A stretch of 36,448 nucleotides of DNA from Defluviitaleaceae bacterium (GTDB taxonomy: Bacteria; Bacillota; Clostridia; Lachnospirales; WQUN01), in contig WRGX01000216.1 in the NCBI GenBank assembly GCA_009786975.1, forward strand, positions 1 through 36,448. Direction: 5' to 3'. A program made the position numbers and the translations under genes. Shown piece by piece: positions 2,565 to 36,448 of the stretch; the first letter of the stretch is position 1; each line of letters starts with the position of its first letter. The notes beneath the pieces were generated by a model, which was not told the origin of the DNA, ran no database searches, and saw only the letters and a list, made by a program, of their open reading frames with translations.

Positions 2565-2786
2565 ATGGACACTGTTTCGGCTGTTCGGGGGCGTATTTTA
2601 CGCCTTTGCGGCGAGCGAAACATCACAATAGACAAGCTGGCCTCCAACGCAGGGTTGCCTCCCTCGTCCGTAAAAAATATTATTTACGGACGAAGCAAAG
2701 ACCCGAAAATAACCACGATTAAAAAAATTTGCGACGGGTTTGACATGACATTGTACGAATTTTTTGCTTTTGAAGAGTTTCAATGA
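2565..2786 (+). CDS. Small Cro/CI-type HTH regulator
   Basis: This 73-residue protein is almost entirely one HTH_3-like domain: RGRILRLCGERNITIDKLAS, then GLPPSSVKNIIYG, then TTIKKICDGFDMTLYEFF. Proteins of this size and pattern are DNA-binding repressors without a sensor domain. The ATG at 2565 is preferred over the one at 2559 because GGGGGT ends 6 nt before it. The stop codon lies 2 nt before the first GCGCGCTTGGCGCGC hairpin of the tandem array, which would serve as its terminator. Confidence 0.82.
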   Translation: MDTVSAVRGRILRLCGERNITIDKLASNAGLPPSSVKNIIYGRSKDPKITTIKKICDGFDMTLYEFFAFEEFQ

Positions 2787-2788
2787 AA

Positions 2789-3083
2789 GCGCGCTTGGCG
2801 CGCTTTTTTTGTACGCCGGGAAACTACTCCCGGCTTCGAGGGAATGTGTCGCCCTTGACACATGTCCCCGGTTTCCAAAGCGCGCTTGGCGCGCTTTTTT
2901 TGTACGCCGGGAAACTGCTCCCGGCTTCGAGGGAATGTGTCGCCCTTGACACATGTCCCCGGTTTCCAATGCGCGCTTGGCGCGCTTTTTTTGTGCGCCG
3001 GGAAACTGCTCCCGGCTTCGAGGGAATGTGTCGCCCTTGACACATGTCCCCGGTTTCCAAAGCGCGCTTGGCGCGCTTTTTTT
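2789..3083 (+). repeat. Tandem array of family A elements (three 91-bp periods, four terminal hairpins)
   Basis: GCGCGCTTGGCGCGC starts at 2789, 2880, 2971 and 3062, an exact 91-bp period, each followed by seven T. Between them lie the GCCGGGA/TCCCGGC hairpin, TTCGAGGGAA, the TGTGTC/GACACA hairpin and CCCCGGTTTCCAA. Units differ at only a few bases, so duplication is recent. Frames are open through the array on both strands, but the repeat itself explains them. This and the following palindrome fill the gap between 2786 and 3229; nothing else is seen except the promoter at 3179. Confidence 0.95.
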
Positions 3084-3090
3084 GTGTGCG

Positions 3091-3133
3091 CAAAAAAGAG
3101 TCGGCGAGTGACACTCGCCGACTCTTTTTTTTT
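3091..3133. terminator. Family B palindrome, copy 1 (bidirectional terminator-like)
   Basis: GAGTCGGCGAGTG paired with CACTCGCCGACTC (3098-3124) is a perfect palindrome around one A. It is flanked by six A on the left and nine T on the right, so it can terminate both strands. Confidence 0.85.
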
Positions 3134-3178
3134 GCGAGGAAAATGAAAATAAAAAAACGCTTAAAACTCGTTTTTTTA

Positions 3179-3228: not shown

Positions 3229-4584
3229 GTGCGTAGGTTTCTTACAGCGGTTGTATTTTTTTTGCTTTTTTGGGGAAGTCTTGATGTTTTTGCCCAGCCC
3301 CTTGCGGACTCCCCTTCGGCGATTCTCGTTGAGCAAACGACGGGTCGCGTGCTTTACGCGCGAAACGAGCGGGAACGCCGCTACCCCGCGGGCTTGACGA
3401 ACATGCTTACCGCGCTTGTGGCAATCGAACATCTCGCGCCGGGCGATGATTTAATCGTCGGCTCGGAAATCCGCGGGATGCCGTCGGGCTTTGGCGCGGG
3501 CGTGCATTCCGAGGGTGAAATTATTTCGGTGCAAACGCTGTTAAATTCGCTGTTGGTGCGTTCGTCGGGCGAGGCGGCGCGGGTTTTGGCGATTAATACG
3601 GTGCGCCAAGCCGGAGGCCGCAGAAATATCCCTTATAATGAAGCGGAACATGCTTTCGCCGCCATGATGAACGAAAAAGCGCGCGGGCTTGGTGCGCAGG
3701 GTTCGAATTTTGCAAACCCCTTCGGTTCGCACGCCGATAATCACTTCACAACGGCGTACGATTTGGCGGTTATCACGCGCGCATTTATGGACAACCCGAT
3801 TTTGGCAGAAATCGCAGGCACTCGCGAATACGAAACGCAGCACGAAACTTGGACAAACGCAAACCAAATGCTCCCCCGCGCACCCATGGGCTATGCGTAT
3901 ATGACGGGCGCAATGGCGGGGTTTACGACGCCTGCCGGGCATGTTCTCGCAGGCGCGGCATACGACACGCATCTCTCTCTCGGGTTTGTTACAATCGTGC
4001 TTGGCGGAACCGACGCGGAACGCTGGCAGGACACGCGCCGCCTTATGGACCACGGGTTTAACAATTTCCGCTTTCGCGAAATCGCCCGCGAGGGCGAAGT
4101 GCTTGAAACCGTTTTAATCGAAAATCCGCGCTTGGGCGATTCCGAAATGCTTGAAATAATCGCGACAGCGTCATATACCGCGCTTTTAAGCCGCTTCGAG
4201 TACGACGAGCTTGCGCGGGTAATCACGTTTGACCCGATGTTATATGAACGACATGAATATGAAGAACCAATCGTCCTTCGCGCGCCGATTGAATACGGCG
4301 AGGCGGTCGGCACGGTTTCATATATATTGAACGGCGAGGTGTTGTTTGAGTCGGCGATTTTGCCGTCACGCGAGGTAATTCCGCGCACTTTTGACAGCGA
4401 TATGGACTATTATCTCGCCATCTTTTTCGAAAATGTTTTTACGAGACGCGCACTGCCGTACTGGTTCGGGATTTTCGGCGTGGCGTTCGGGATTTTCGGC
4501 ATTGTTCTGGCGGTTAAGGCACATAGCCGCGTAAGCCGAAAAGCCGTGCGCACCTCAAGCCGAAGCAAATACGGTCGTTATTAA
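3229..4584 (+). CDS. D-alanyl-D-alanine carboxypeptidase-like protein (S11 fold), catalytic residues lost
   Basis: About 451 residues: signal peptide (RRFLTAVVFFLLFWGSLDVFA), S11/DacF-like penicillin-binding domain, beta-rich C-terminal domain and a final transmembrane helix with a basic tail (YWFGIFGVAFGIFGIVLAV). The family fold is clear from ILVEQTTGRVLYARNERERR and NPFGSHADNHFTTAYDLAVI. The three active-site motifs are degenerate, numbering from the TTG at 3226. SxxK is replaced by GLTN (56-59), SGN by SGE (114-116), and KTG by MTG (226-228). It should therefore not have carboxypeptidase activity; a structural or binding role is inferred. GTG 3229 is chosen because AAGGCGG lies 8 nt upstream; TTG 3226 is possible. 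First gene of the operon. Confidence 0.8.
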   Translation: MRRFLTAVVFFLLFWGSLDVFAQPLADSPSAILVEQTTGRVLYARNERERRYPAGLTNMLTALVAIEHLAPGDDLIVGSEIRGMPSGFGAGVHSEGEIISVQTLLNSLLVRSSGEAARVLAINTVRQAGGRRNIPYNEAEHAFAAMMNEKARGLGAQGSNFANPFGSHADNHFTTAYDLAVITRAFMDNPILAEIAGTREYETQHETWTNANQMLPRAPMGYAYMTGAMAGFTTPAGHVLAGAAYDTHLSLGFVTIVLGGTDAERWQDTRRLMDHGFNNFRFREIAREGEVLETVLIENPRLGDSEMLEIIATASYTALLSRFEYDELARVITFDPMLYERHEYEEPIVLRAPIEYGEAVGTVSYILNGEVLFESAILPSREVIPRTFDSDMDYYLAIFFENVFTRRALPYWFGIFGVAFGIFGIVLAVKAHSRVSRKAVRTSSRSKYGRY

Positions 4585-4594
4585 AATAAGGGGG

Positions 4595-4678
4595 GATTAA
4601 GCATGAAAAATCTAAGAAAGGAACGCGGGCGACCCATTTTAAATGGCGATTTATACGCTCGGCGAATGGCGAAAAAAT
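4595..4678 (+). repeat. Family D leader repeat, copy 1
   Basis: The copy holds its own ribosome-binding site and start (GGGGGATTAAGCATG), then AAAAAT, AAAGGAACGCGGGCGA, a variable centre and CGGCGAATGGCGAAAAA. Related copies lie before ogg (18880-18962) and, in tandem, before the GH5 gene (21340-21488). Confidence 0.7.
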
Positions 4679-4695: not shown

Positions 4696-5585
4696 CAGGG
4701 TTCGGACGCGGAGAATGCACGATGCACAACAGAAAGTTCAGGATAGAAATGAAATCGGTAAACCACAGGTTTAGTGATTTTTCAATAAGAACACCGCGCT
4801 TCCTCGCACCCTTCGAGGAGCGAATCCGCGCCCGAATTTCAAAGGACATTGTGCGCGGAAAAACCGATATGTGGATAAACTTCGAAAGTTTCGCGGAGGA
4901 CGATATGAAAATCCACATAAATTCGGTCTATGCCGACGCGTATATGAAAGTCATATGGGATTTAAGCAAACGGTACGGCATAGGCGACCCCGACACCGTC
5001 GCGCTGGAGCTTTTGGCAAAAACGCCCGACGTTATCGTGCATGAAAAATACGACGATGTAATGGATTTGGACTCGGCGGACGAGATATGGGCAGGGCTTT
5101 CCGACGCATTAGAAAAAACCCTTGCGCAGTTTAACCACATGCGCGAAACCGAAGGCGAGGCCCTCATCCGCGATATAAGCGAAAATTATATACGCGCCAA
5201 AGAGATTGTTAAGGAAATTCGCAAGCAGGCACCCCGCGCGTCGGAACAATACGCAGAACGGCTAAAAGAGCGGGTAAACGAATTGATGGACAAGTTTGGC
5301 GACACCGCCGACGACTCGAGGCTTTTAACCGAAATCGCCCTCCTTGCCGACAAAACCGACATAAACGAAGAAATGGCGCGCCTGGAAAGCCATTTGAGCC
5401 AACTTTCGGAAATGATACACGAAAACGGCGCGATAGGCCGCAAAATGGACTTCCTCGCGCAAGAGCTTAATCGCGAGGCAAACACAATCGGCTCGAAATC
5501 GCACGACGTGCAGCTTACACGCTCCGTCGTCGAGTTGAAAAGTCTAATCGAAAAAATTCGGGAGCAAGTCCAAAACATCGAATGA
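4680..5585 (+). CDS. yicC: YicC family protein (endoribonuclease-type)
   Basis: This 301-residue protein has the N-terminal YicC domain (MTGFGRGE, then EMKSVNHRF and FLAPFEERIRARISKDIVRG) and the C-terminal DUF1732 region (GRKMDFLAQELNREANTIGS). The family is widespread, and the E. coli member is an endoribonuclease affecting small RNA stability. Firmicute homologues lie next to remA and gmk, as here. The start MPKSMTGFGR matches the usual length. ATG 4692 (MTGFGR) overlaps the stop of the small leader ORF and is the alternative. The 3' end forms the first unit of a 16-bp tandem repeat. Confidence 0.92.
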   Translation: MPKSMTGFGRGECTMHNRKFRIEMKSVNHRFSDFSIRTPRFLAPFEERIRARISKDIVRGKTDMWINFESFAEDDMKIHINSVYADAYMKVIWDLSKRYGIGDPDTVALELLAKTPDVIVHEKYDDVMDLDSADEIWAGLSDALEKTLAQFNHMRETEGEALIRDISENYIRAKEIVKEIRKQAPRASEQYAERLKERVNELMDKFGDTADDSRLLTEIALLADKTDINEEMARLESHLSQLSEMIHENGAIGRKMDFLAQELNREANTIGSKSHDVQLTRSVVELKSLIEKIREQVQNIE

Positions 5586-5641
5586 TATTTTAATCGAATG
5601 ATACTTTAATCGAATGATATTTTAATTGAATGATATTTTAA
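5578..5641 (+). repeat. Four tandem 16-bp repeats between yicC and remA
   Basis: TCGAATGATATTTTAA is repeated at 5578, 5594, 5610 and 5626, with one substitution each in units 2 and 4. Unit 1 contains the yicC stop (GAATGA). The array ends just before the remA ribosome-binding site. It probably arose by slippage from the yicC 3' end and adds AT-rich spacer before remA. Confidence 0.9.
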
Positions 5642-5667
5642 TCGACACTTTAGGAGAGGTGCAAAAG

Positions 5668-7115: not shown

Positions 7116-9384
7116 TTTTGCACTTATTTGCGTTGATATTTTGCACGGCGATGTTGACCGTTTATTTTTTTACAAAATTCCGGCGGGGCTTGAAATTTCC
7201 GTCGGTCAACGCGTGCGCGTGCCGTTTGGGTTGGGCGATTCGATTAAAATCGGCTATGTAATGGAAGTTACACAAACGCCGACGGATGATATCGCGCCGG
7301 AAAAAGTCAAAGAAATACACAGTCGGCTCGACGATTTTCCCGTTCTTACGCTGGAAACAATCGAGCTTGCGTTTTGGATGCAAAAAAAATATTACACAAC
7401 GCTTGCGGCGTGTGTACGCGCGATTGTTCCCGGCTCGAAAAGCGACGGGAAATTTCCTGTCGCGCGGAAAAAGCCGAAATTTTCGGAAATTACGCCGGTC
7501 GACATCACTTTGACCGACGAGCAAGAACACGCCGTTTCGCAAATTCTTCAAGCCGTTTCGGTTTCGGCTTCGGCTTCGGTTCCGCCTGACGGAGAACGCG
7601 GGACTGCCGACACAGATTCACGCTGTTTGACCTTTTCCTCGTCTGAAAAAGTATCAGAGCGCGCTCGACGCGCTATTTTACTGCATGGAGTAACGGGCAG
7701 CGGAAAAACCGAAGTTTACTTACACGCAATCGAAAAAATTTTGGCCGAGGGGCGGCAGGCAATCGTTCTTGTTCCCGAAATCGCGCTTACGCCGCAAATG
7801 GTCGCGCTTTTTTCCGCGCGATTCGGCAGTGCCGTCGCCGTAACGCACAGCCGCCTCACCCAAGCCGAACGCTTTCAAATTTGGAAAATGGCACTATCCT
7901 CCGAAATTTCGCTTGTAATCGGGCCGCGTTCCGCCGTTTTCGCGCCGTTTCCGCGCCTCGGACTCATCGTTATCGACGAGGAACACGAACATACCTACCA
8001 TTCCGAAACCGCCCCAAAATACGACGCCCGCGAAGTCGCCTTAAAACGCGCGGAAATTTGCGACGCCGCCGTTGTTTTGGGTTCGGCCACGCCAAGTCTT
8101 GAAAGCTATTTTAAGGCGCGGGAAAAATTGATGATGTTGGTGCCACTAACCGCAAGGATTAATAAAACCTTGCCGGAAATCCATATCGTTGACATGCGAA
8201 ACGAGATGCGGCGGGGGAATGCGTCGATTTTTTCGCAAAGTTTTTCGGACGCGCTTGCGGAAACTTTGGCGGCGGGTCGGCAGGCGATTTTATTTTTGAA
8301 TCGGAGGGGGCATTCGTCGTTTGTTAGCTGTCGGTGGTGCGGGCATGTTATGGGGTGCGAAAGTTGCAGGGTTAATCATACATATCATGCGGACAAAGGG
8401 CGGCTTTTGTGCCATTATTGCGGCAAGGGGACGGCGATGCCCGCGCGGTGTCCGATTTGCGAGTCCGAGCATATAAAGAAGTATGGGACGGGGACGCAGA
8501 AGGTCGAGGCGGAAATCACCGAGCTTTTCCCCGACGTGAAAGTCCTGCGCATGGACATGGACACCACGCGCGGCAAGCATGGTCACGCGAAAATTTTGGA
8601 CGCGTTTCGCGCGGGCGAGGCGCAGATTTTAATCGGCACACAAATGGTCGCTAAGGGGCTGGATTTTCCGAACGTTACGCTCGTTGGCGTAATCGCGGCG
8701 GATATGTCGCTTCATACCGGCGATTTTCGCGCAGGAGAGCATACGTTTCAAATTTTAACGCAGGTGGCGGGACGCGCGGGACGGCGCGCCAAGCGCGAAA
8801 TGGACGCCACGGGCGCAGTGAGCGAAGCGAACGTTTCCCGCGCCGCCAAGGGCGCAGTGAGTTCCCGCGCTACCGAGGACTCATGTGTGCAGTCCGGGCA
8901 TTCTATCGAAGCCGGAAGTGAAGCCGGAAGCCATGAAAAAAGATACCAAGGAAAAGTCTTCATCCAAACTTTTAATCCCGAGCATTACGCAATCGCCCTC
9001 GCCGAAAAAGGCGATTACGAAAAATTTTTTGCACATGAAATCGCGTTGCGCGAGGCTATGATTTATCCGCCGTTTTCGCATGTTTTTTCGGTAATGCTTA
9101 CCGGGACGCAGGAGCGCGAGGTTGTCGCGGCGTTGCAAACGCTTGCCGCAATTATGGAATATGTTGCAAAGCGCGACGGGAAGGAACGTTTTGAATTAAT
9201 GGGGCTTTCACCCGCTTTTGTTTCGATGATAAAGAAACAATTCCGTTGGAAACTTCTTGTAAAATCGCGCGAGGAAGCCACGCTCGTCGCATTTGTGTTA
9301 TATTGTATAAAAAAATTAAAGCAGAGCAATCCGCTTAAAAATATGACTTTGCACCTCACACTTAACCCTATAATGATGGAATAA
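7102..9384 (+). CDS. priA: Primosomal protein N' (replication restart helicase PriA), with repeat-derived insert
   Basis: Superfamily 2 helicase that reloads the replisome at stalled forks. About 760 residues: N-terminal 3'-DNA-binding domain (DVDRLFFYKIP, RVRVPFG), Walker A GVTGSGKTE (196-204), Walker B DEEHEHTYHSE, eight zinc-binding cysteines (CRWC, CESC, CHYC, CPIC, about 410-455), and MVAKGLDFPNV plus QVAGRAGR of the C-terminal RecA-like lobe. ATG 7102 fits the family start and overlaps rpoZ by 14 nt. Residues 562-615, right after GRAGR, are a family A plus module M insert. Native sequence resumes at QGKVFIQTFNPEHY. A second low-complexity insert lies before Walker A (7557-7672). Neighbouring helicase motifs are intact, so function is likely kept. 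Confidence 0.95.
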   Translation: MLPSNFALICVDILHGDVDRLFFYKIPAGLEISVGQRVRVPFGLGDSIKIGYVMEVTQTPTDDIAPEKVKEIHSRLDDFPVLTLETIELAFWMQKKYYTTLAACVRAIVPGSKSDGKFPVARKKPKFSEITPVDITLTDEQEHAVSQILQAVSVSASASVPPDGERGTADTDSRCLTFSSSEKVSERARRAILLHGVTGSGKTEVYLHAIEKILAEGRQAIVLVPEIALTPQMVALFSARFGSAVAVTHSRLTQAERFQIWKMALSSEISLVIGPRSAVFAPFPRLGLIVIDEEHEHTYHSETAPKYDAREVALKRAEICDAAVVLGSATPSLESYFKAREKLMMLVPLTARINKTLPEIHIVDMRNEMRRGNASIFSQSFSDALAETLAAGRQAILFLNRRGHSSFVSCRWCGHVMGCESCRVNHTYHADKGRLLCHYCGKGTAMPARCPICESEHIKKYGTGTQKVEAEITELFPDVKVLRMDMDTTRGKHGHAKILDAFRAGEAQILIGTQMVAKGLDFPNVTLVGVIAADMSLHTGDFRAGEHTFQILTQVAGRAGRRAKREMDATGAVSEANVSRAAKGAVSSRATEDSCVQSGHSIEAGSEAGSHEKRYQGKVFIQTFNPEHYAIALAEKGDYEKFFAHEIALREAMIYPPFSHVFSVMLTGTQEREVVAALQTLAAIMEYVAKRDGKERFELMGLSPAFVSMIKKQFRWKLLVKSREEATLVAFVLYCIKKLKQSNPLKNMTLHLTLNPIMME
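7557..7672 (+). repeat. Low-complexity insert in priA with a possible decayed family A element
   Basis: About 38 extra residues separate LTDEQEHAVSQILQAVS from LLHGVTGSGKT. The DNA begins with TTCGGCTTCGGCTTCGG repeats and ends with GCGCGCTCGACGCGC, close to the family A hairpin GCGCGCTTGGCGCGC. The middle shares only short words with the consensus, such as GCCGACACA. Insert status is likely; assignment to family A is tentative. Confidence 0.45.
8784..8940 (-). repeat. Family A element with duplicated module M, inside priA
   Basis: On the plus strand the order is GCGCGCCAAGCGCG, GGACGCCACGG, module M (8811-8844), a shortened second M (8850-8871), GACTCATGTGTGCAGTCCGG, TCTATCGAAGCCGGAAG and a repeat of GAAGCCGGAAG. 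The insert is about 162 bp, a multiple of three, and is translated within PriA. The orientation places the T tract before the hairpin in the priA message, so it should not terminate. Confidence 0.85.
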
Positions 9385-9534
9385 AATAATTCACGCGAGA
9401 GACAGCGGGCGAATGTGTCCGTTGCGAAAATCGGTAATCGTGTGACGAAAAAATGGAGTAAAATAATTCACGCGGAAGACAGCGGGCGAACGTGCCTGTT
9501 GCGAAAATCGGTAATCGTGTGACGAAAAAATGGA
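9376..9534 (+). repeat. 77-bp direct duplication between priA and def
   Basis: Two copies (9376-9452 and 9453-9529) differ at only a few bases, and the first bases of a third (ATGGA) follow. Each copy runs from ATGGA(A/G)TAAAATAATTCA through CAGCGGGCGAA to ATCGGTAATCGTGTGACG. The first copy includes the priA stop. The unit end ATGGAGTGA supplies the def ribosome-binding site. Confidence 0.9.
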
Positions 9535-14579: not shown

Positions 14580-14762
14580 AAAAAATCGAGTCGGCGAGTG
14601 ACACTCGCCGACTCGATTTTTTTTGCGCAGTTTTATGGCAAAAAAAGCGCGCACTGCGCGCACCACGGGCGCAGTGCGCGAAGCGAACGTTTCCTGCGCC
14701 ACTGTAGACAAGTGCCGGAGGCGACACATTCCCTCGAAGCCGGGAACAGTTGCCCGGCGTAT
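14580..14762 (-). repeat. Composite repeat: family B copy 3, linker, family A with module M
   Basis: The family B palindrome lies at 14588-14614 with A and T tracts. The linker GCGCAGTTTTATGGCA follows and also joins B to A at 19205-19235. The A element (14647-14762) starts GCGCGCACTGCGCGC, then module M (GGGCGCAGTGCGCGAAGCGA), AAGTGCCGGAGGCGACACAT, CCCTCGAAGCCGGGAACAGT. On the minus strand the hairpin precedes a T tract, ending transcripts from the gene at 15024. Confidence 0.88.
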
Positions 14763-15023: not shown

Positions 15024-15449
15024 TTAGCGGCTGTCCATCCAGTCGTCCGCCATTTCAAGAAGCGTAATCGGCGTAACAGTTCCCGCCGCGAACGCGCGAG
15101 CCATAGCAAAAATCACGTCGCGGTCGTCGGTTATGCCGTGCGTTTCTTCGCTTTCTTGAGGGTCAGGAAACTGCTCCCGGCTTCGAGGGAATGCGTCGCC
15201 GCCGACACATGTTCCCGGTGTCCAATGCGCGCCTGGCGCGCTTTCTTGAGGCATCCCGTCGGGCGCGCGGGATGCGTTGGCTTCGCTCGCGTCCGACGGG
15301 GTGCGTTTTTCGACGCGCAGGGCGTAGTATTCATCCCCGTCGTCGTTTAAGTAAGTTTGTACGATGTAGCTTAAAATCCACGTTTCTCCGGTTTCGGTGC
15401 TGATTTTTTCGTTCGAAACCATCTCATTTTTTTGCGCATTCGCAACCAT
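15024..15449 (-). CDS. DUF6514-like protein carrying a repeat-derived insert
   Basis: A 141-residue protein. Residues 15-48 (ETGETWILSYIVQTYLNDD, YYALRVEK) and 101-140 (THGITDDRDVIFAMARAF, AAGTVTPITLLEMADDWM) match my recollection of the short clostridial DUF6514 family of about 95 residues and unknown function. Between them lie about 51 residues from module M and a family A element (SEANASRAPDG, SAPGAHWTPGTCVGGDAFPR). AAAAGGGGA lies 8 nt before the ATG. It is downstream of recN on the same strand. The family call is from memory and moderately sure; the insert is seen directly. Confidence 0.65.
   Translation of the reverse strand: MVANAQKNEMVSNEKISTETGETWILSYIVQTYLNDDGDEYYALRVEKRTPSDASEANASRAPDGMPQESAPGAHWTPGTCVGGDAFPRSREQFPDPQESEETHGITDDRDVIFAMARAFAAGTVTPITLLEMADDWMDSR
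15163..15304 (+). repeat. Family A element plus module M variant inside the DUF6514-like gene
   Basis: CAGGAAACTGCTCCCGGC, TTCGAGGGAATGCG, GCCGACACATGTTCCCGG and GCGCGCCTGGCGCGC (15227-15241) match the consensus closely. The module M variant (GCGCGGGATGCGTTGGCTTC) lies at 15252-15304, bounded by CCCGTCGG and CCGACGGG. It is in frame and in the non-terminating orientation relative to the gene. Confidence 0.88.
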
Positions 15450-15566: not shown

Positions 15567-17303
15567 TCAAATTTTTTTCAGAGCGTCGGCTTGGCTTTTC
15601 ATCTCGCTTGCGGATTGGAGCGTTGCCGATGTAATGGCGGCGCCGCCTGTTAATCGGGCGAGTTCGCGGATTGTACCGTCGGTGCAAAGGGGGGCAACGC
15701 TTGTGATTGTGCGGCCCGTTCGCTCGGCTTTTTCGATTAGGAAGTGCGTGTCCGCCATTGCAGCGATTTGTGGCAAATGTGTGATACATAAAATTTGTCG
15801 CGTGCGTGAAACCGCCGCCAGTTTTTCTGCTACTTGTTGCGCCGTTCTGCCCGACACGCCTGTGTCAACCTCGTCGAAAATTACGGTGGGCACGCGGTCC
15901 GACATTATCGTTTTTATAGCGAGCATGATGCGCGACATTTCGCCGCCGCTGGCGATTTTTCGCAGGGGTTTGGCGGGTTCGCCCGGGTTCGGCGAAATCA
16001 TAAACTCGATTTCGTCGTTGCCGTCAGCCGCGAACACGGTTTTTTGCTTGATTTGAATAAAAAGCTCCGCGTGTTGCATTCCGAGGTCGCGTAAAATTTC
16101 GGTGATTTCGGCGGAAAGTCGGGCGGCGTGGGCGGTGCGAATCGCGTTCATTGTTGCGCAAACCGCTGTTATTTCCGCGGAAATTTCCTTGCGACGCGCG
16201 CGGATTTTTCGCGCTTCGACTTCGGCGTTCTCAACGCTGTCCAGCTTTTGCGCCAAATCGTCTCGCTTCATTAGAATAGTCTCGACCGTTGCGCCGTATT
16301 TTTTTTTCAGCCTGTAAATCGTGTCGAGGCGCGTTTCCATTGCGTCGAGGGCGTGCGGGTCGGCGTCGAGTTCGCCTTCATAATCGCGAAAATCTCGCCC
16401 GATTTCGCGGATTACTGCGTTTACGTCAACCAAAGCGGTATGTAAATGTTCCTTCGACGGGTCAATCCGCGCGATTTCCGCGGCAAGCGCGACTGCTTTC
16501 GCGGTGGCGTCGGCGGCGGGCATACTCGGGCGTCCCTCAAAAAACCCCGCATAAAGCAGGGCCACAATGTCCGACGTGTTCCGACTCAAACGCTCGAGCC
16601 CCGCAAGCCTGTCCCGCTTTGCCGTAAGCGCGTCCTCTTCTCCCGGCTTCAGCGCGGCGGCTTCGATTTCGTTTAGCTGGAACCGCCAAATTTCAAGCTG
16701 TTCCGCGCTTGTTCCCGCTTCGATTTTTTTAAGCTCGCGCGTGGCCTCTTTATAGCGCGACAAATGTCCCGCGAGGGCGGTTTTCATCTCCGCCAGTTCA
16801 TCTCCGCAGAAATAATCCAGCATTTCAAGCTGTTTCGCCGGGTCGAGAAGGCTTTGATGCTCGTGTTGGCCGTGCAATTCAACAAGCAACTCCGCCGCGC
16901 TTTTTAACACGCCGACGGTAACGGTGCGGCCATTTATACGGCAAGTTGACTTGCCTGTGTCAGCCTGCATCGCGCGCGAAAGCATGAGTTGCCCGCCGTC
17001 GAGTTCTATCCCCAACGCAATAAGCCCCTGTTTTAAAGCAGCGGAAGCAGAATCCGGCTTCGAGAGCACGCGAGGCACCCGACACATGTTATCGGTGTCA
17101 AAAATACCTTCGACGCTGGCGGAGGGTGCGCCTGTGCGGATTAGGTCGCGGGAGGTTCGTCCGCCGAGCAAAAAATTTATGGAGTCAACAACAATGGATT
17201 TTCCCGCGCCGGTTTCGCCCGAAAGCACGTTAAGCCCGGGCGCGAACGCTACTTCGACCTCGTCGATAAGCGCGACGTTTTTTATACGTAAATTCACTAT
17301 CAT
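15567..17303 (-). CDS. recN: DNA repair protein RecN, with repeat-derived insert
   Basis: SMC-like ATPase acting early in double-strand break repair. About 578 residues: N-terminal Walker A (GETGAGKSIVVDSINFLLGG, 29-48), LHGQHEHQSLLDP, coiled-coil centre, ABC signature LRKIASGGEMSRIMLAIK, Walker B VIFDEVDTGVSG and QILCITHLPQIAA. ATG 17303 overlaps the argR stop (ATGA). Residues about 69-89 (DTDNMCRVPRVLSKPDSASA) are a family A insert between SVEGIFD and GLIALGIELDGG, a loop region in the family. Motifs elsewhere are intact. Confidence 0.95.
   Translation of the reverse strand: MIVNLRIKNVALIDEVEVAFAPGLNVLSGETGAGKSIVVDSINFLLGGRTSRDLIRTGAPSASVEGIFDTDNMCRVPRVLSKPDSASAALKQGLIALGIELDGGQLMLSRAMQADTGKSTCRINGRTVTVGVLKSAAELLVELHGQHEHQSLLDPAKQLEMLDYFCGDELAEMKTALAGHLSRYKEATRELKKIEAGTSAEQLEIWRFQLNEIEAAALKPGEEDALTAKRDRLAGLERLSRNTSDIVALLYAGFFEGRPSMPAADATAKAVALAAEIARIDPSKEHLHTALVDVNAVIREIGRDFRDYEGELDADPHALDAMETRLDTIYRLKKKYGATVETILMKRDDLAQKLDSVENAEVEARKIRARRKEISAEITAVCATMNAIRTAHAARLSAEITEILRDLGMQHAELFIQIKQKTVFAADGNDEIEFMISPNPGEPAKPLRKIASGGEMSRIMLAIKTIMSDRVPTVIFDEVDTGVSGRTAQQVAEKLAAVSRTRQILCITHLPQIAAMADTHFLIEKAERTGRTITSVAPLCTDGTIRELARLTGGAAITSATLQSASEMKSQADALKKI
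17041..17100 (+). repeat. Decayed family A element inside recN
   Basis: AATCCGGCTTCGAGAGCACG, CCCGACACATGTTATCGGTG and TCAAAAA follow the consensus in order. The GCGCGC hairpin is lost. It is in frame and in the non-terminating orientation for recN. Confidence 0.75.
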
Positions 17304-17958: not shown

Positions 17959-18951
17959 TCATAATTGCCGAAACCCATTAGTGTCCCCATCCCCCGTGCG
18001 AATATAATGAAACAAAAACTGTTGCGCGATGCCGGAAAAATTTTTTATTTCCGGAGGGAAGCCCTTGGGGAACCAGCGCGACATTGCGCGGCGAATCCAA
18101 ACGTCGGCGGGATAGCGTTCGACGCGACCGAATCCGTAAAGCAAAACACATTCCGCAACCTTCGGCCCGACGCCGCGAATTTTTTGCAAAACTTCGCACA
18201 GCTCGTCGGATGAAAAATTTTCACACGCGTGCAAGTCGATTTCGCCGCTTGCCACGCGCCTCGCCGCGTCCAGTACATATCCCGCGCGATAGCCCAAGCG
18301 CAGGGGCGCAAGGTCGACTTCGCTCAACCCGGCAAGTTTTTCGGGCGTGGGAAAATCGAAATAGTGCATGGCTTCGAGAGAACGCTCCGCCACGTGTCCG
18401 CAGTTTCCACCGTGCGCTTGGCGCACCCCGAAATTTTCGCACAATGCCTCCACCATTTTTTTTATGCGCGGAATATTTGCGTTTTGGCTCAAAATAAACG
18501 AAACCAACGTTTCCCACGAATTTTGGCGCAAAAGCCGCAAACCCGGCGAAAATTCCACCGCATTTTTCAGATGCTCGCTGCACTCCGAAAAAAGCGCGCG
18601 TAAATTTCCGTAATCCCGCTCGATGTCAAAGTAATTTTTCCATATTTTTTCAAACTCATCCTCCGAAACATCATGCAAAATCACTTCGCCGTTTGCGCGC
18701 GAAATTTCCAGCCGCCGCCCCTGCGCAATGCCGACAAAGAGTTCTCGGTTTTGAGCGCACGCGTCGCCACTTGCCCCCGGTTTCCACAGTGCGCTTGGCG
18801 CACACCAGCGAAACGCCTGCCCACAGTCAAGCGTTTGCGCAAGGTCAAAATCGATGCCCTTTAATATGTAATTCACACTTTTCACCATTCGCTGAACGCA
18901 CAAATCGCCATTAAAAATCGGACGCCCGCGTTCCTCTTGTTCATTTTTCAC
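17959..18951 (-). CDS. ogg: 8-oxoguanine DNA glycosylase (Ogg1 family) with two repeat-derived inserts
   Basis: Excises oxidised guanine from DNA. About 330 residues. Visible: N-terminal LDCGQAFRW, FILSQNANIPRIKKMVEALCE, and the HhH-GPD core IRGVGPKVAECVLLYGFGRV with catalytic Lys and YPADVWIRR with catalytic Asp. GTG 18951 is preferred for AAGGGGTGAG upstream; it makes the family D leader the N-terminus. ATG 18888 (MVKSVNYILK) is the canonical-length alternative. Residues about 51-71 (CAPSALWKPGASGDACAQNR) and 175-195 (RQAHGGNCGHVAERSLEAMH) are family A copies, each between conserved blocks. The frame also runs upstream through intergenic repeats; that part is not gene. Confidence 0.88.
   Translation of the reverse strand: MKNEQEERGRPIFNGDLCVQRMVKSVNYILKGIDFDLAQTLDCGQAFRWCAPSALWKPGASGDACAQNRELFVGIAQGRRLEISRANGEVILHDVSEDEFEKIWKNYFDIERDYGNLRALFSECSEHLKNAVEFSPGLRLLRQNSWETLVSFILSQNANIPRIKKMVEALCENFGVRQAHGGNCGHVAERSLEAMHYFDFPTPEKLAGLSEVDLAPLRLGYRAGYVLDAARRVASGEIDLHACENFSSDELCEVLQKIRGVGPKVAECVLLYGFGRVERYPADVWIRRAMSRWFPKGFPPEIKNFSGIAQQFLFHYIRTGDGDTNGFRQL
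18367..18428 (+). repeat. Family A element inside ogg (distal insert)
   Basis: GGCTTCGAGAGAACGC, GCCACGTGTCCGCAGTTTCC and GTGCGCTTGGCGCAC follow the consensus. The terminal hairpin keeps its symmetry through compensating changes (GTGCGC/GCGCAC instead of GCGCGC/GCGCGC). Confidence 0.8.
18739..18802 (+). repeat. Family A element inside ogg (proximal insert)
   Basis: GTTCTCGGTTTTGAGCGCAC, GTCGCCACTTGCCCCCGG, TTTCCACA and GTGCGCTTGGCGCAC. It carries the same GTGCGC/GCGCAC variant hairpin as the distal ogg copy. In frame, non-terminating orientation. Confidence 0.78.
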
Positions 18952-18962
18952 ACTTCTCACCC
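18880..18962 (-). repeat. Family D leader repeat, copy 2
   Basis: On the minus strand AAGGGGTGAGAAGTGTGAAA, GAGGAACGCGGGCG, TTTTTAATGGCGATTTGTGC and GTTCAGCGAATGGTGAAAA. Here the leader frame stays open into ogg, so it is probably translated as the Ogg N-terminus. Confidence 0.7.
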
Positions 18963-18988
18963 CTTGCATTTTATCACAAACAGCAAGA

Positions 18989-19386: not shown

Positions 19387-21339
19387 CTACGGCGCAACCA
19401 AATCAAACGTAACTTCAATAGAGTGAATCCGCACCCCCGCATAATTCGCAAGCAACCGCGGGTTTGCGTTCGCATCTTCATCTTGGAAAACGCGCGCTCC
19501 CGCAGGAATGCCCGCAACCCAGCCATTGTACAAATTCACACGGGTTGTATTTCCGTCGTCGCTTGTCGTGAATGGAACGCCGATTTGCTCGGCTTCGTTG
19601 CCGTTTACCAAAATGGATGTGATGTTTACATAATATCCCGGAAACAGCGACTCGCCGTTGAAAATCCCAAGCGCGGAGAAGGTAATTCCATTCGCGCCGC
19701 CACCGGGTACGCCTCCGAAGTTCAGTCCAACGGTGTAAGTCCCTTCGCCCGTAATTTCAACGTCGGCAGCGACAACGCCGCTTGTTATGCTTTCCGGCCG
19801 ATAATCGTCGCCAACGCTGTATTGCACCGACCAATCCGTGCTTGTGAACATAATCCACGCAACCGCCATGTCGTCGGGAATTATCGTAACGGGGCGATTA
19901 CGCGCCATTTCCATCGTATTTTCCATGCTTTCGCGCGCTGCCGCAATTATATCGGCGGTAGTCAGGCCTTCGCGGGCTTCGACGCTTCGGCTTTGGAAAA
20001 GCTCCAAAATATCCGGCTCGGTAAGGGTTCGCGTGAAACGCCTGTCGAACATTCCGCCGGCTCCCCTGTCCCATAAAATCGGCGAAAAACCGTGATAATC
20101 GCTTAAATCCAAGAAATTCGTAAAAAATTTCAGCCTGTCGGGCCCCTCGTTATCCAAGACGCCCCATTCGCCCAAAACTATGCCGTAACCCTGCTCGGTG
20201 AAAAAAGTCAAACGGCCCAGCAAATCATTCATTTCCTCGACTTCCGTTACTGTCCCCCAGTGGTCCACGCCGGAAACGTCGCCCGTAAAACTCCACGGGG
20301 TGTAGTAATGAACGCTTAGTAAAATTCGGCCGCGCGGGTCTGTGGGCAGCTCAAAGCGCGGGTCCAGGGTCATCATAACGTCGGTGTTATAGCCCTTCAT
20401 CAGCAAAAAACGGTCGGGATTGTACCCGCCCTGCGAACGAATCAGGTCAACAAAAACTTGGGACAAATATGTGAGAAGCTGATAATTTTCCGTTACGGAG
20501 AAAATTCCGCCGGGACTGAAAGCGGTTGCGTCGTTAAAACGACTGCCCCATTCCTCGTTGGACGGCTCCAAAATAAGGCGCATGTCGTAATCGGCAAAAT
20601 GCTCGCCGATTTGCGTCCACATCGCAACGAACATTTCATGCGCAAAATCTCGCCGTTCCTCCTCGGGATGCCCGAACATGCTCCACCATCCGTGGTCCCA
20701 ATGCGCGTTAATAATAACGAACATGTCCTCGTTCAAAGCGTAATTTACGATTTGTTCAACGCGCTCGAGGTAGTCGATGCCTATTGTAAGGTCGCCGTTT
20801 TCGAAGTCCATCGCGTTTGTCCACGCAACGGGAATTCGCAGGGTGTTAAAGCCCGCGTCGCGCATTCCCGTAATCATTTCCTGCGTCGTAACGGGGTTGC
20901 CCCACATTGTTTCGTAAACGGAAGTGTGTTGATTCGGCACACGATTCGCGGAATTCACCGCTTCCATCGTATTGCCCAAATTTATTCCGTTGCCCAAAAG
21001 CCGCGCCATCTCAAGAGATGTTACATACGCGAGACTTTCGCAAGGCGGCGGCTGAACCCGCTCGCTATCCTGCGTGCCGCCCGAATCGGCTGTCGGCGTC
21101 GCGTCATTCGAAGCATTATTCGAAGCATTATTCGAAGCACCGGTCGCAACGCCATCCGCAACATCGGTCGCAACATCATTCGAAGCGTCATCCCCTGCGC
21201 CCTCCGGACTTTCCTCCGGCGCATCTTCAAAAACGGGCGAGGCCGGGTACTCATACCCGGCCTCATCCGTCCCGCCGCAAGCGGCAAAAAACAACATCCC
21301 CACAGCGGCAAAAATTAAAATTTCAAAATATTTTCTCAT
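19387..21339 (-). CDS. Lipoprotein glycoside hydrolase family 5 (endoglucanase type) with C-terminal binding domain
   Basis: A 650-residue secreted enzyme. Lipoprotein signal with lipobox Cys21 (GMLFFAACGG), then an Asn/Ala/Asp-rich linker (about 35-95, NNASNNASND) and a GH5 catalytic barrel (about 105-480): NGINLGNTMEA, TLRIPVAW, INAHWDHGWW, acid/base Glu262 after Asn261 (PSNEEWG), HYYTPW and nucleophile Glu391 (GEWGV). The C-terminal 130 residues (TYTVGLNFGGVPGGGANGIT) form a beta-sandwich like that of carbohydrate-binding modules. GH5 enzymes of this type usually cut beta-1,4-glucan or related glycans; substrate is not settled by sequence. Last gene of the transport cluster, so it likely feeds the importers. 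Confidence 0.88.
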   Translation of the reverse strand: MRKYFEILIFAAVGMLFFAACGGTDEAGYEYPASPVFEDAPEESPEGAGDDASNDVATDVADGVATGASNNASNNASNDATPTADSGGTQDSERVQPPPCESLAYVTSLEMARLLGNGINLGNTMEAVNSANRVPNQHTSVYETMWGNPVTTQEMITGMRDAGFNTLRIPVAWTNAMDFENGDLTIGIDYLERVEQIVNYALNEDMFVIINAHWDHGWWSMFGHPEEERRDFAHEMFVAMWTQIGEHFADYDMRLILEPSNEEWGSRFNDATAFSPGGIFSVTENYQLLTYLSQVFVDLIRSQGGYNPDRFLLMKGYNTDVMMTLDPRFELPTDPRGRILLSVHYYTPWSFTGDVSGVDHWGTVTEVEEMNDLLGRLTFFTEQGYGIVLGEWGVLDNEGPDRLKFFTNFLDLSDYHGFSPILWDRGAGGMFDRRFTRTLTEPDILELFQSRSVEAREGLTTADIIAAARESMENTMEMARNRPVTIIPDDMAVAWIMFTSTDWSVQYSVGDDYRPESITSGVVAADVEITGEGTYTVGLNFGGVPGGGANGITFSALGIFNGESLFPGYYVNITSILVNGNEAEQIGVPFTTSDDGNTTRVNLYNGWVAGIPAGARVFQDEDANANPRLLANYAGVRIHSIEVTFDLVAP

Positions 21340-21488
21340 TTTTTCGTCATTCGCTGAACGTACAAATTTCTAATGGAATTCGTCGCCCGCGTTCCTTTTT
21401 TCGATTTTTAACCCTTTTTCGTCATTCGCTGAACGCACAAATTCCTGATGAAATTCGTCGCCCGCGTTCCTTTCGCCGATTTTTCACC
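21340..21488 (-). repeat. Two tandem family D leader repeats before the GH5 gene
   Basis: Units at about 21340-21414 and 21415-21488, 75-bp period. On the minus strand each has AAAAATC, AAAGGAACGCGGGCGACGAA, AATTTGT and CGTTCAGCGAATGACGAAAA. The upstream unit opens GTG AAA AAT as in the ogg copy; the downstream one has GTT. The leader frame ends TGA, and the GH5 ATG lies 7 nt after the second TGA. Confidence 0.82.
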
Positions 21489-35680: not shown

Positions 35681-36448
35681 TCAATTTGCGGAACAATCCG
35701 AAACACCGCGCACAATCCGCGGCAGACCTGCGTAATCGCTTGAAATTTCTACATCGCTGAAGCCCTCGTCGCGCAGTAAATCCGCAACTTCGACCGGTCC
35801 GATTTCGAAAAACAACGCCCCGCCTTCGCGCAGGGCATTTTTTGCTTGGGGGATTAAACGGCGATAGAGGTCGAGTCCGTCGGGGCCGCCGTTTAGGGCG
35901 AGATGTGGCTCGTGGTCGCGGACGGAGGGGGATAGGGTTTGCATTTCGGCGGCGGTGATGTATGGCGGGTTTGAGATGATTATGTCGAATTTTTCGTCGG
36001 CGGAAGGCATGTTCGGCTTCGAAGGCATGTGTCTTTTTTGTGGGCCGGGAAATTGCTTCCGGCTTCGAGGGAATGTGCCGACTTCGACACATGTCCCCGG
36101 TGTCCAGTGCGCGCTTGGCGCGCTTTTTTGAAAAATGTTATCGCTTATGAGGTCGGATTCGATAAATTTCACGCGCGCGGAAAGCCCCAGTTTTTCCGCA
36201 TTTTTTTTCGCAAGCGCGAGGGCGTCGGGGGAAATGTCGGTTGCGGTGATTTCGGCGCGGTCGCCCAAAACATGCGCAAGTGCGAGGGCGATACAGCCGC
36301 TTCCGGTGCAAACGTCGAGTATGCGCAGGGGTGTGTTTTTTTGTGCGTGAAAATCGAGTCGGCGAGTGTGACTCGCCGACTCGATTTTATTTTTGGCAGG
36401 GAAACTGCTTCCGGCTTCGAGGGAACGCGGCGATTCCGACACATGTCC
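35681..36448 (-). CDS. prmC: Peptide chain release factor N5-glutamine methyltransferase PrmC, C-terminal part, with repeat-derived inserts
   Basis: Methylates the GGQ glutamine of release factors using SAM. The methyltransferase core is clear: LRILDVCTGSGCIALALAHV (SAM motif I), ITATDISPDALALAKKNAEK, the catalytic NPPY in FDIIISNPPYI, then GPDGLDLYRRLIPQA. The N-terminal domain lies beyond the right edge. Two inserts interrupt the core: family A plus family B before motif I (SLEAGSSFPAKNKIESAS), and family A plus a partial copy between ESDLISDNIF and EKFDIIISNPPY (about 40 residues, KSAPSAHWTPGTCVEVGTFP). Both are in frame. Catalytic motifs are intact, so activity is plausible. The frame is open to the window edge. 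Confidence 0.9.
   Translation of the reverse strand, partial: GHVSESPRSLEAGSSFPAKNKIESASHTRRLDFHAQKNTPLRILDVCTGSGCIALALAHVLGDRAEITATDISPDALALAKKNAEKLGLSARVKFIESDLISDNIFQKSAPSAHWTPGTCVEVGTFPRSRKQFPGPQKRHMPSKPNMPSADEKFDIIISNPPYITAAEMQTLSPSVRDHEPHLALNGGPDGLDLYRRLIPQAKNALREGGALFFEIGPVEVADLLRDEGFSDVEISSDYAGLPRIVRGVSDCSAN
36001..36127 (+). repeat. Family A element plus partial second copy inside prmC
   Basis: A short partial (GGCTTCGAAGGCATGTGTC, near 36014) is followed by a full copy: GGGCCGGGAAATTGCTTCCG, CTTCGAGGGAATGTGCCGAC, ACACATGTCCCCGGTGTCCA and GCGCGCTTGGCGCGC (36109-36123). In frame, non-terminating orientation for prmC. Confidence 0.9.
36350..36448 (+). repeat. Family B copy 5 and family A element inside prmC (cut by window edge)
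   Basis: The family B palindrome is at 36356-36382, with a central change (GTGTGAC instead of GTGTCAC) and a shortened T tract. The A element follows from 36393 (GGGAAACTGCTTCCGGCTTC, GACACATGTCC) to the edge. The 39-bp B unit is 13 codons, translated KIESASHTRRLDF. Confidence 0.85.

Follow-up and report, generated by a model that had tools for sequence, protein, structure and literature searches.

The window analysed here is the entire contig C216 (36,448 bases) from the metagenome assembly of a 2.2-Mb Lachnospirales genome, G000 (219 contigs, 92.3% complete), and it stops within prmC. Its last 768 bases carry a minus-strand frame that is open over 255 codons (36448-35681), is cut at the contig end and constitutes the 3' part of the sole prmC found in the assembly. 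The frame matches TIGR03534 (E=2.6e-52) in two stretches, of which 150-246 is the best, and the motif I block gives a match of its own at 36140-36346; both SAM motif I (LDVCTGSGCI; 36290-36319, minus strand) and the catalytic NPPY motif (35960-35971, minus strand) are present. Alignment with PrmC from nine congeneric species placed one insert site on either side of motif I. Site 2, an insertion of ~43 codons (36002-36130, minus strand; residues ~107-149, between ESDLISDNIF and FDIIISNPPY), is missing from all nine and holds a full-length copy of a repeat termed A (36035-36128, minus strand) together with part of a second, its ~20-nt conserved core GACACATGCCTTCGAAGCCGA (36008-36028, minus strand). 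The hairpin and T tract of A at this site, GCGCGCTTGGCGCGCTTTT, lie antisense to prmC (36109-36127, plus strand). Site 1 comprises residues 1-35 ahead of motif I, the stretch GHVSESPRSLEAGSSFPAKNKIESASHTRRLDFHAQ, and is itself cut at the contig end; it contains an equally truncated A copy with the in-frame peptide GHVSESPRSLEAGSSFPA (36386-36448, minus strand), followed by the palindromic stem of a second repeat, B (36354-36384), with the sense flank TCGATTTTCACG. The gene-sense T tract of this B copy, GATTTTCACG, has a run of 4, compared with a median run of 7 in intergenic copies, and of the 144 B cores detected in a 3-mismatch search this copy alone has the centre GTGTGAC, the others reading GTGACAC/GTGTCAC bar four singletons.

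These observations bear out an earlier note on this DNA, which had claimed two separate insert sites in prmC, a full and a partial A copy at the second, and a B copy with a broken T tract and an altered centre; its example peptide requires correction, the predicted tryptic peptide being SAPSAHWTPGTCVEVGTFPR. PrmC of G009, a relative in the same genus, is without both inserts, and its flanks are 73-77% identical to those of G000. PrmC of G003, also of this genus, has its own A-derived insert of ~70 residues in the site-1 linker, and since that insert is read in a different frame, an independent insertion into a permissive linker is suggested.

Repeat A is a unit of ~90 nt in which a GCGCGC-CAA-GCGCGC hairpin stands beside an A tract (a T tract on the opposite strand), accompanied by the conserved core CATTCCCTCGAAGCCGG and a second stem, GCCGGGA..TCCCGGC. 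It is palindromic and hairpin-forming: stem pairing is preserved above the level of shuffled sequences, the G009 version reading GCACGC/GCGTGC, and the sense consensus has a secondary structure of -48 kcal/mol. A 38-nt module, CCACGGGCGCAGTGAGCGAAGCGAACGTTTCCCGCGCC, is found beside the A hairpin or in its place in some copies (window 8807-8844 and 14663-14700), and A looks modular as judged from such copies. Repeat B, TCGAGTCGGCGAGTGNCACTCGCCGACTCGA, is a near-perfect palindrome that lies between A and T tracts. Both the antisense strand of A and either strand of B have the form of an intrinsic terminator, a GC-rich hairpin followed by a T run, and intrinsic transcription termination by both repeats is predicted on this basis; the sequence GCGCGCTTGGCGCGCTTTT occurs at 138 intergenic places in half of the genome. 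No Rfam family was detected in the window.

A survey of 1.09 Mb of G000, covering 49% of the genome in stretches and using a home-made gene caller, revealed 375 A copies in 241 islands, many of them tandem, as well as 142 copies of B. In the window, a tandem array of three A copies lies between genes (2786-3085, minus strand) and is followed by B at ~3090-3140. The abundance of A in G000, 345 copies per Mb, is far beyond chance; its density was 166 per Mb in G003, for which the sample was skewed to contigs already known to hold A, and 59 per Mb in G009, while none was found in 0.4 Mb of the further relative G001. With the prmC copy of A as query, 3 of 60 relatives gave a match, namely G003, G009 and, weakly, G005. 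An exact 30-mer of A had no match in named genomes and a shorter A core matched in G003; single matches of the shorter core in Merdimonas, a Lachnospiraceae MAG and Oceanobacillus were at about chance level and were set aside. A search of a phage collection for A gave no match. The single IMG/VR hit, a contig (L262:860-950), contains an A copy with the same reading as one in G003 (L167:5454), and may represent a prophage of that species.

The association of A with B is also a genome-wide feature, as the 3' end of A is at most 25 nt away from 80 of 142 B copies, where ~3% would be expected. The mixture of the two families at site 1 of prmC, pointed out in the earlier note, is thus real but not special: with B so often directly 3' of A, it represents the standard composite.

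Although A is concentrated outside genes (2.2 copies per kb, compared with 0.08 per kb within them), a depletion that would be expected if most gene insertions are removed, prmC is far from being its only host. In the surveyed half of G000, 41 reading frames that look coding on either side of the repeat hold 53 A copies, grouped in 46 islands. The hosts, named via NCBIfam, for some with a best match below the curated cut-off and with L140:8121-12743 left out, include LigA, MurJ and HydG (two sites each), RlmD (two multi-copy sites), RNase R, MnmG, Tgt, PurK, PurH, ThiI, NAD kinase, HelD, PriA, RecN, pyrimidine-nucleoside phosphorylase and V-ATPase subunit I. The window itself contains A-derived in-frame segments in priA (8844-8919, plus strand), recN (17043-17106, minus strand) and an ogg-like DNA glycosylase gene (18366-18426, minus strand, with a weaker second one at 18729-18803), and a full A copy in frame within a 141-aa reading frame of no assigned function (15152-15246, minus strand). 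In RlmD, three tandem A copies directly follow the SAM motif HCGVGT. The RlmD frame (L110:6951-8951) encodes 666 aa, compared with 450 in G009, and holds six A copies and one B copy at two sites; for a test on a single protein, RlmD may be the best choice.

When every A island was compared with the proteins of G001, G003 and G009, an orthologous protein was found on both sides of 22 islands, and the two sides were in frame in all 22, with none frameshifted. Residue-level alignments showed the extra residues to be absent from relatives in most of the islands printed; a few of the 22 are without a clean insert, among them L139, L158:13190 and the ogg pair. The host proteins thus appear to carry extra loops of 20-120 residues that have no counterpart in relatives. 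All three sense frames of A are used (21/17/8), and antisense reading is rare. Six-frame stops number 1.65 in A and 5.06 in random 90-mers, but selection for a stop-free A was rejected, as the difference from dinucleotide shuffles of the consensus gave p=0.21.

That the inserts are cut out of the RNA or skipped by translational bypassing, leaving proteins of normal length, might be proposed from the strong secondary structure of the sense consensus and from the position of the inserts within conserved folds. If that happened, neither frame nor stop codons would matter, whereas all 22 islands open to comparison are in frame; this frame preservation argues against excision or bypassing. The copies are, moreover, truncated and of variable length and are read in all three frames, so we consider removal or skipping highly improbable.

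The absence of the N-terminal half of prmC from the assembly raises the alternative that the gene is a decaying pseudogene in which repeats pile up at no cost. PrmC_N (PF17827), which would lie past the contig end, was not found in the assembly by profile search, nor did the N-terminus of G009 PrmC find a counterpart there. However, DUF1385, the usual upstream neighbour of prmC, was also not found in the G000 assembly, and of 85 contig ends, 22 have A no more than 100 nt away; with both the neighbour and the N-terminal domain missing, the gene was most likely cut where the assembly broke at a repeat. Other observations likewise count against decay. The frame is open through both inserts, no second PrmC was found in the assembly, and the columns that are invariant in 20 homologues, which include motif I and NPPY residues, are all preserved in the retained part. 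Substitution rates are dN 0.10-0.23 and dS 0.68-1.30 against G009 and G003, giving a dN/dS of roughly 0.1-0.2 in either half, and the retained domain is, judging from these ratios, under purifying selection in both halves. An AlphaFold2 model, of the kind the earlier note had called for, has a pLDDT >90 for the bulk of the methyltransferase core and of 35-66 in the inserts; in the model the catalytic fold is undisturbed, and the inserts appear as floppy loops. The same insert pattern also recurs in some 40 other genes, and we regard decay of prmC as unlikely.

The orientation of A within genes is strongly biased (46:7), with the hairpin and T tract facing antisense. Among in-gene copies that keep the hairpin module the split is 32:1, compared with 68:32 where co-directional genes flank A (Fisher p=4e-4), and through this shared orientation the terminator-like hairpin-plus-T points antisense. 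The bias cannot be put down to stop codons, since more frames are open in the orientation that is disfavoured. Within frames that are coding on both sides, all complete A-type terminators are antisense; six that were first scored as sense lie in the first 70 codons with non-coding sequence upstream, and were rejected as spurious N-terminal extensions. The raw split in G003 is weaker (13:9), and the antisense A copies there look like short core fragments, as judged by their peptides.

B copies in reading frames differ in their T tracts. Sense-side runs have a median of 4 in ORFs (15 copies, some of which sit in doubtful N-terminal extensions) and of 7 between genes (p=7.5e-6, or p=1.6e-5 when the prmC copy is omitted), while antisense-side runs are less reduced (median 5, p=0.008). 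The suggestion of the earlier note that the prmC copy of B has lost terminator function is in line with this genome-wide shortening on the sense side. It describes a trend rather than a rule, since the B copy in the RlmD frame (L110:8331-8353) retains a T6 tract.

These features invite the explanation that A and B are kept as transcription terminators of the host, their copies in genes being a by-product of that use and not of selfish spread. The concentration of A outside genes fits such a role, as do the intergenic T runs of B, whose median of 7 is pooled over both sides and which give B the shape of a bidirectional terminator. Against it, A has no preferred terminating orientation: its orientations are balanced between convergent genes (31:35) and between divergent genes (25:21), and the 68:32 split between co-directional genes runs against termination. 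Tandem arrays and species-specific expansions look instead like proliferation, and we see little likelihood that host use accounts for the repeats.

The reading that we favour, and regard as probable, is that PrmC was hit twice by a proliferating mobile repeat, A with or without B, whose copies in genes are kept only if they are in frame and non-terminating and are then read as disordered loops. A would be a hairpin-forming, stop-poor interspersed repeat of ~90 nt that, often with B joined at its 3' end, spreads as non-autonomous mobile DNA. Purifying selection would spare copies in genes only where they keep the frame, contain no stop codon and do not cause termination of sense transcription; this filter would leave the hairpin-plus-T of A antisense and allow the sense-side T tract of B to decay. 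The ribosome would then read through a retained copy, adding a disordered surface loop to the protein. Mobility of A and B, their termination activity, translation of the inserts and harmlessness of the loops are elements of this scheme that we infer. More tentative is the broader claim that a frame-agnostic, stop-poor repeat of a Bacillota genome lies in frame in about eighty genes (extrapolated from 41 in half of the genome), with termination as the survival filter that sets orientation; here our judgement is nearly balanced, leaning slightly to doubt. If true, many essential enzymes would bear loops encoded by selfish DNA.

No Y1 transposase (PF01797) was found in G000, G003 or G009, the three A-bearing genomes, and a RAYT/Y1 transposase as mobiliser was thereby ruled out. 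A search of 33 single full copies gave no sign of a target-site duplication (flank similarity 3.79, compared with 3.77 for shuffled flanks). The consensus ends are A tracts and not inverted repeats, and A was, for lack of terminal inverted repeats and target-site duplication, rejected as a MITE. REP elements are short, palindromic, high-copy and often clustered sequences that are mobilised by RAYT (Y1) transposases and are extragenic by definition. A resembles them in being short, palindromic, high-copy and often clustered, but differs in the absence of a Y1 transposase from the three genomes and in its presence within genes.

The chief known case of palindromic repeats lying in frame in many protein genes is Rickettsia; there, the relaxed selection that goes with an obligate intracellular lifestyle offers a possible explanation. 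The RPEs, as far as the cited description goes, are palindromic sequences of ~150 bp that lie in frame in unrelated protein genes, each with one conserved peptide (Ogata et al., 2000, 2002, reviewed in PMC10969869). A, at ~90 nt, shares with them the occurrence of short palindromic repeats in frame in many unrelated genes, with 41 genes involved, 22 of 22 tested islands in frame and insert-free orthologues in relatives. It differs in its host, a relative of Defluviitaleaceae in the unrelated phylum Bacillota, and in its reading: copies use three sense frames and, in rare cases, an antisense one, in contrast to the single conserved peptide described for each RPE. Judged against the description of the RPEs, A is further set apart by its orientation-biased module resembling a terminator, by its tandem arrays and by its composite with B. 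Because A has no single conserved peptide, we do not class it among the RPEs but liken it to them in its manner of working, and it is by analogy best read as an RPE-like protein-coding mobile repeat in Lachnospirales. No report of repeat A was found in open-licence papers. The SPRITE elements of Streptococcus pneumoniae resemble Rho-independent terminators, have A- and T-tract ends and no detectable target duplication, and are reported to occur in 30 copies, enriched between convergent genes near 3' ends (PMC3049150). B has the same terminator-like form with A- and T-tract ends, but is found also within reading frames and adjoining A. The enterobacterial elements RU-1/2/3 are small mobile repeats whose open frames form in-frame fusions with genes through more than one frame, and they were not found within conserved domains (PMC2759123). 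A is likewise a small repeat with open frames, more than one of them in use, but it lies within catalytic folds (PrmC, RlmD, LigA and RNase R).

The density of A in G000 and the existence of sister species of the same genus without the repeat mean that many essential enzymes occur naturally both with and without an insert, making it possible to test how far folds tolerate random loops and, in the same system, whether transcription termination determines which insertions survive.

Other repeats were also observed in the window. A third interspersed family of ~75 nt, CATTCGCTGAACGCACAAAT...GTCGCCCGCGTTCCT, occurs at 21331-21480, 18879-18977 and 4577-4675; 62 copies were counted in half of G000 and one in G009, with none in sampled G003 or G001. 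A 16-bp unit, ATCGAATGATATTTTA, is repeated in tandem at 5577-5656, between a YicC-like gene and the next small gene, and a 77-nt tandem duplication with 92% identity (9376-9529) starts at the priA stop codon region.
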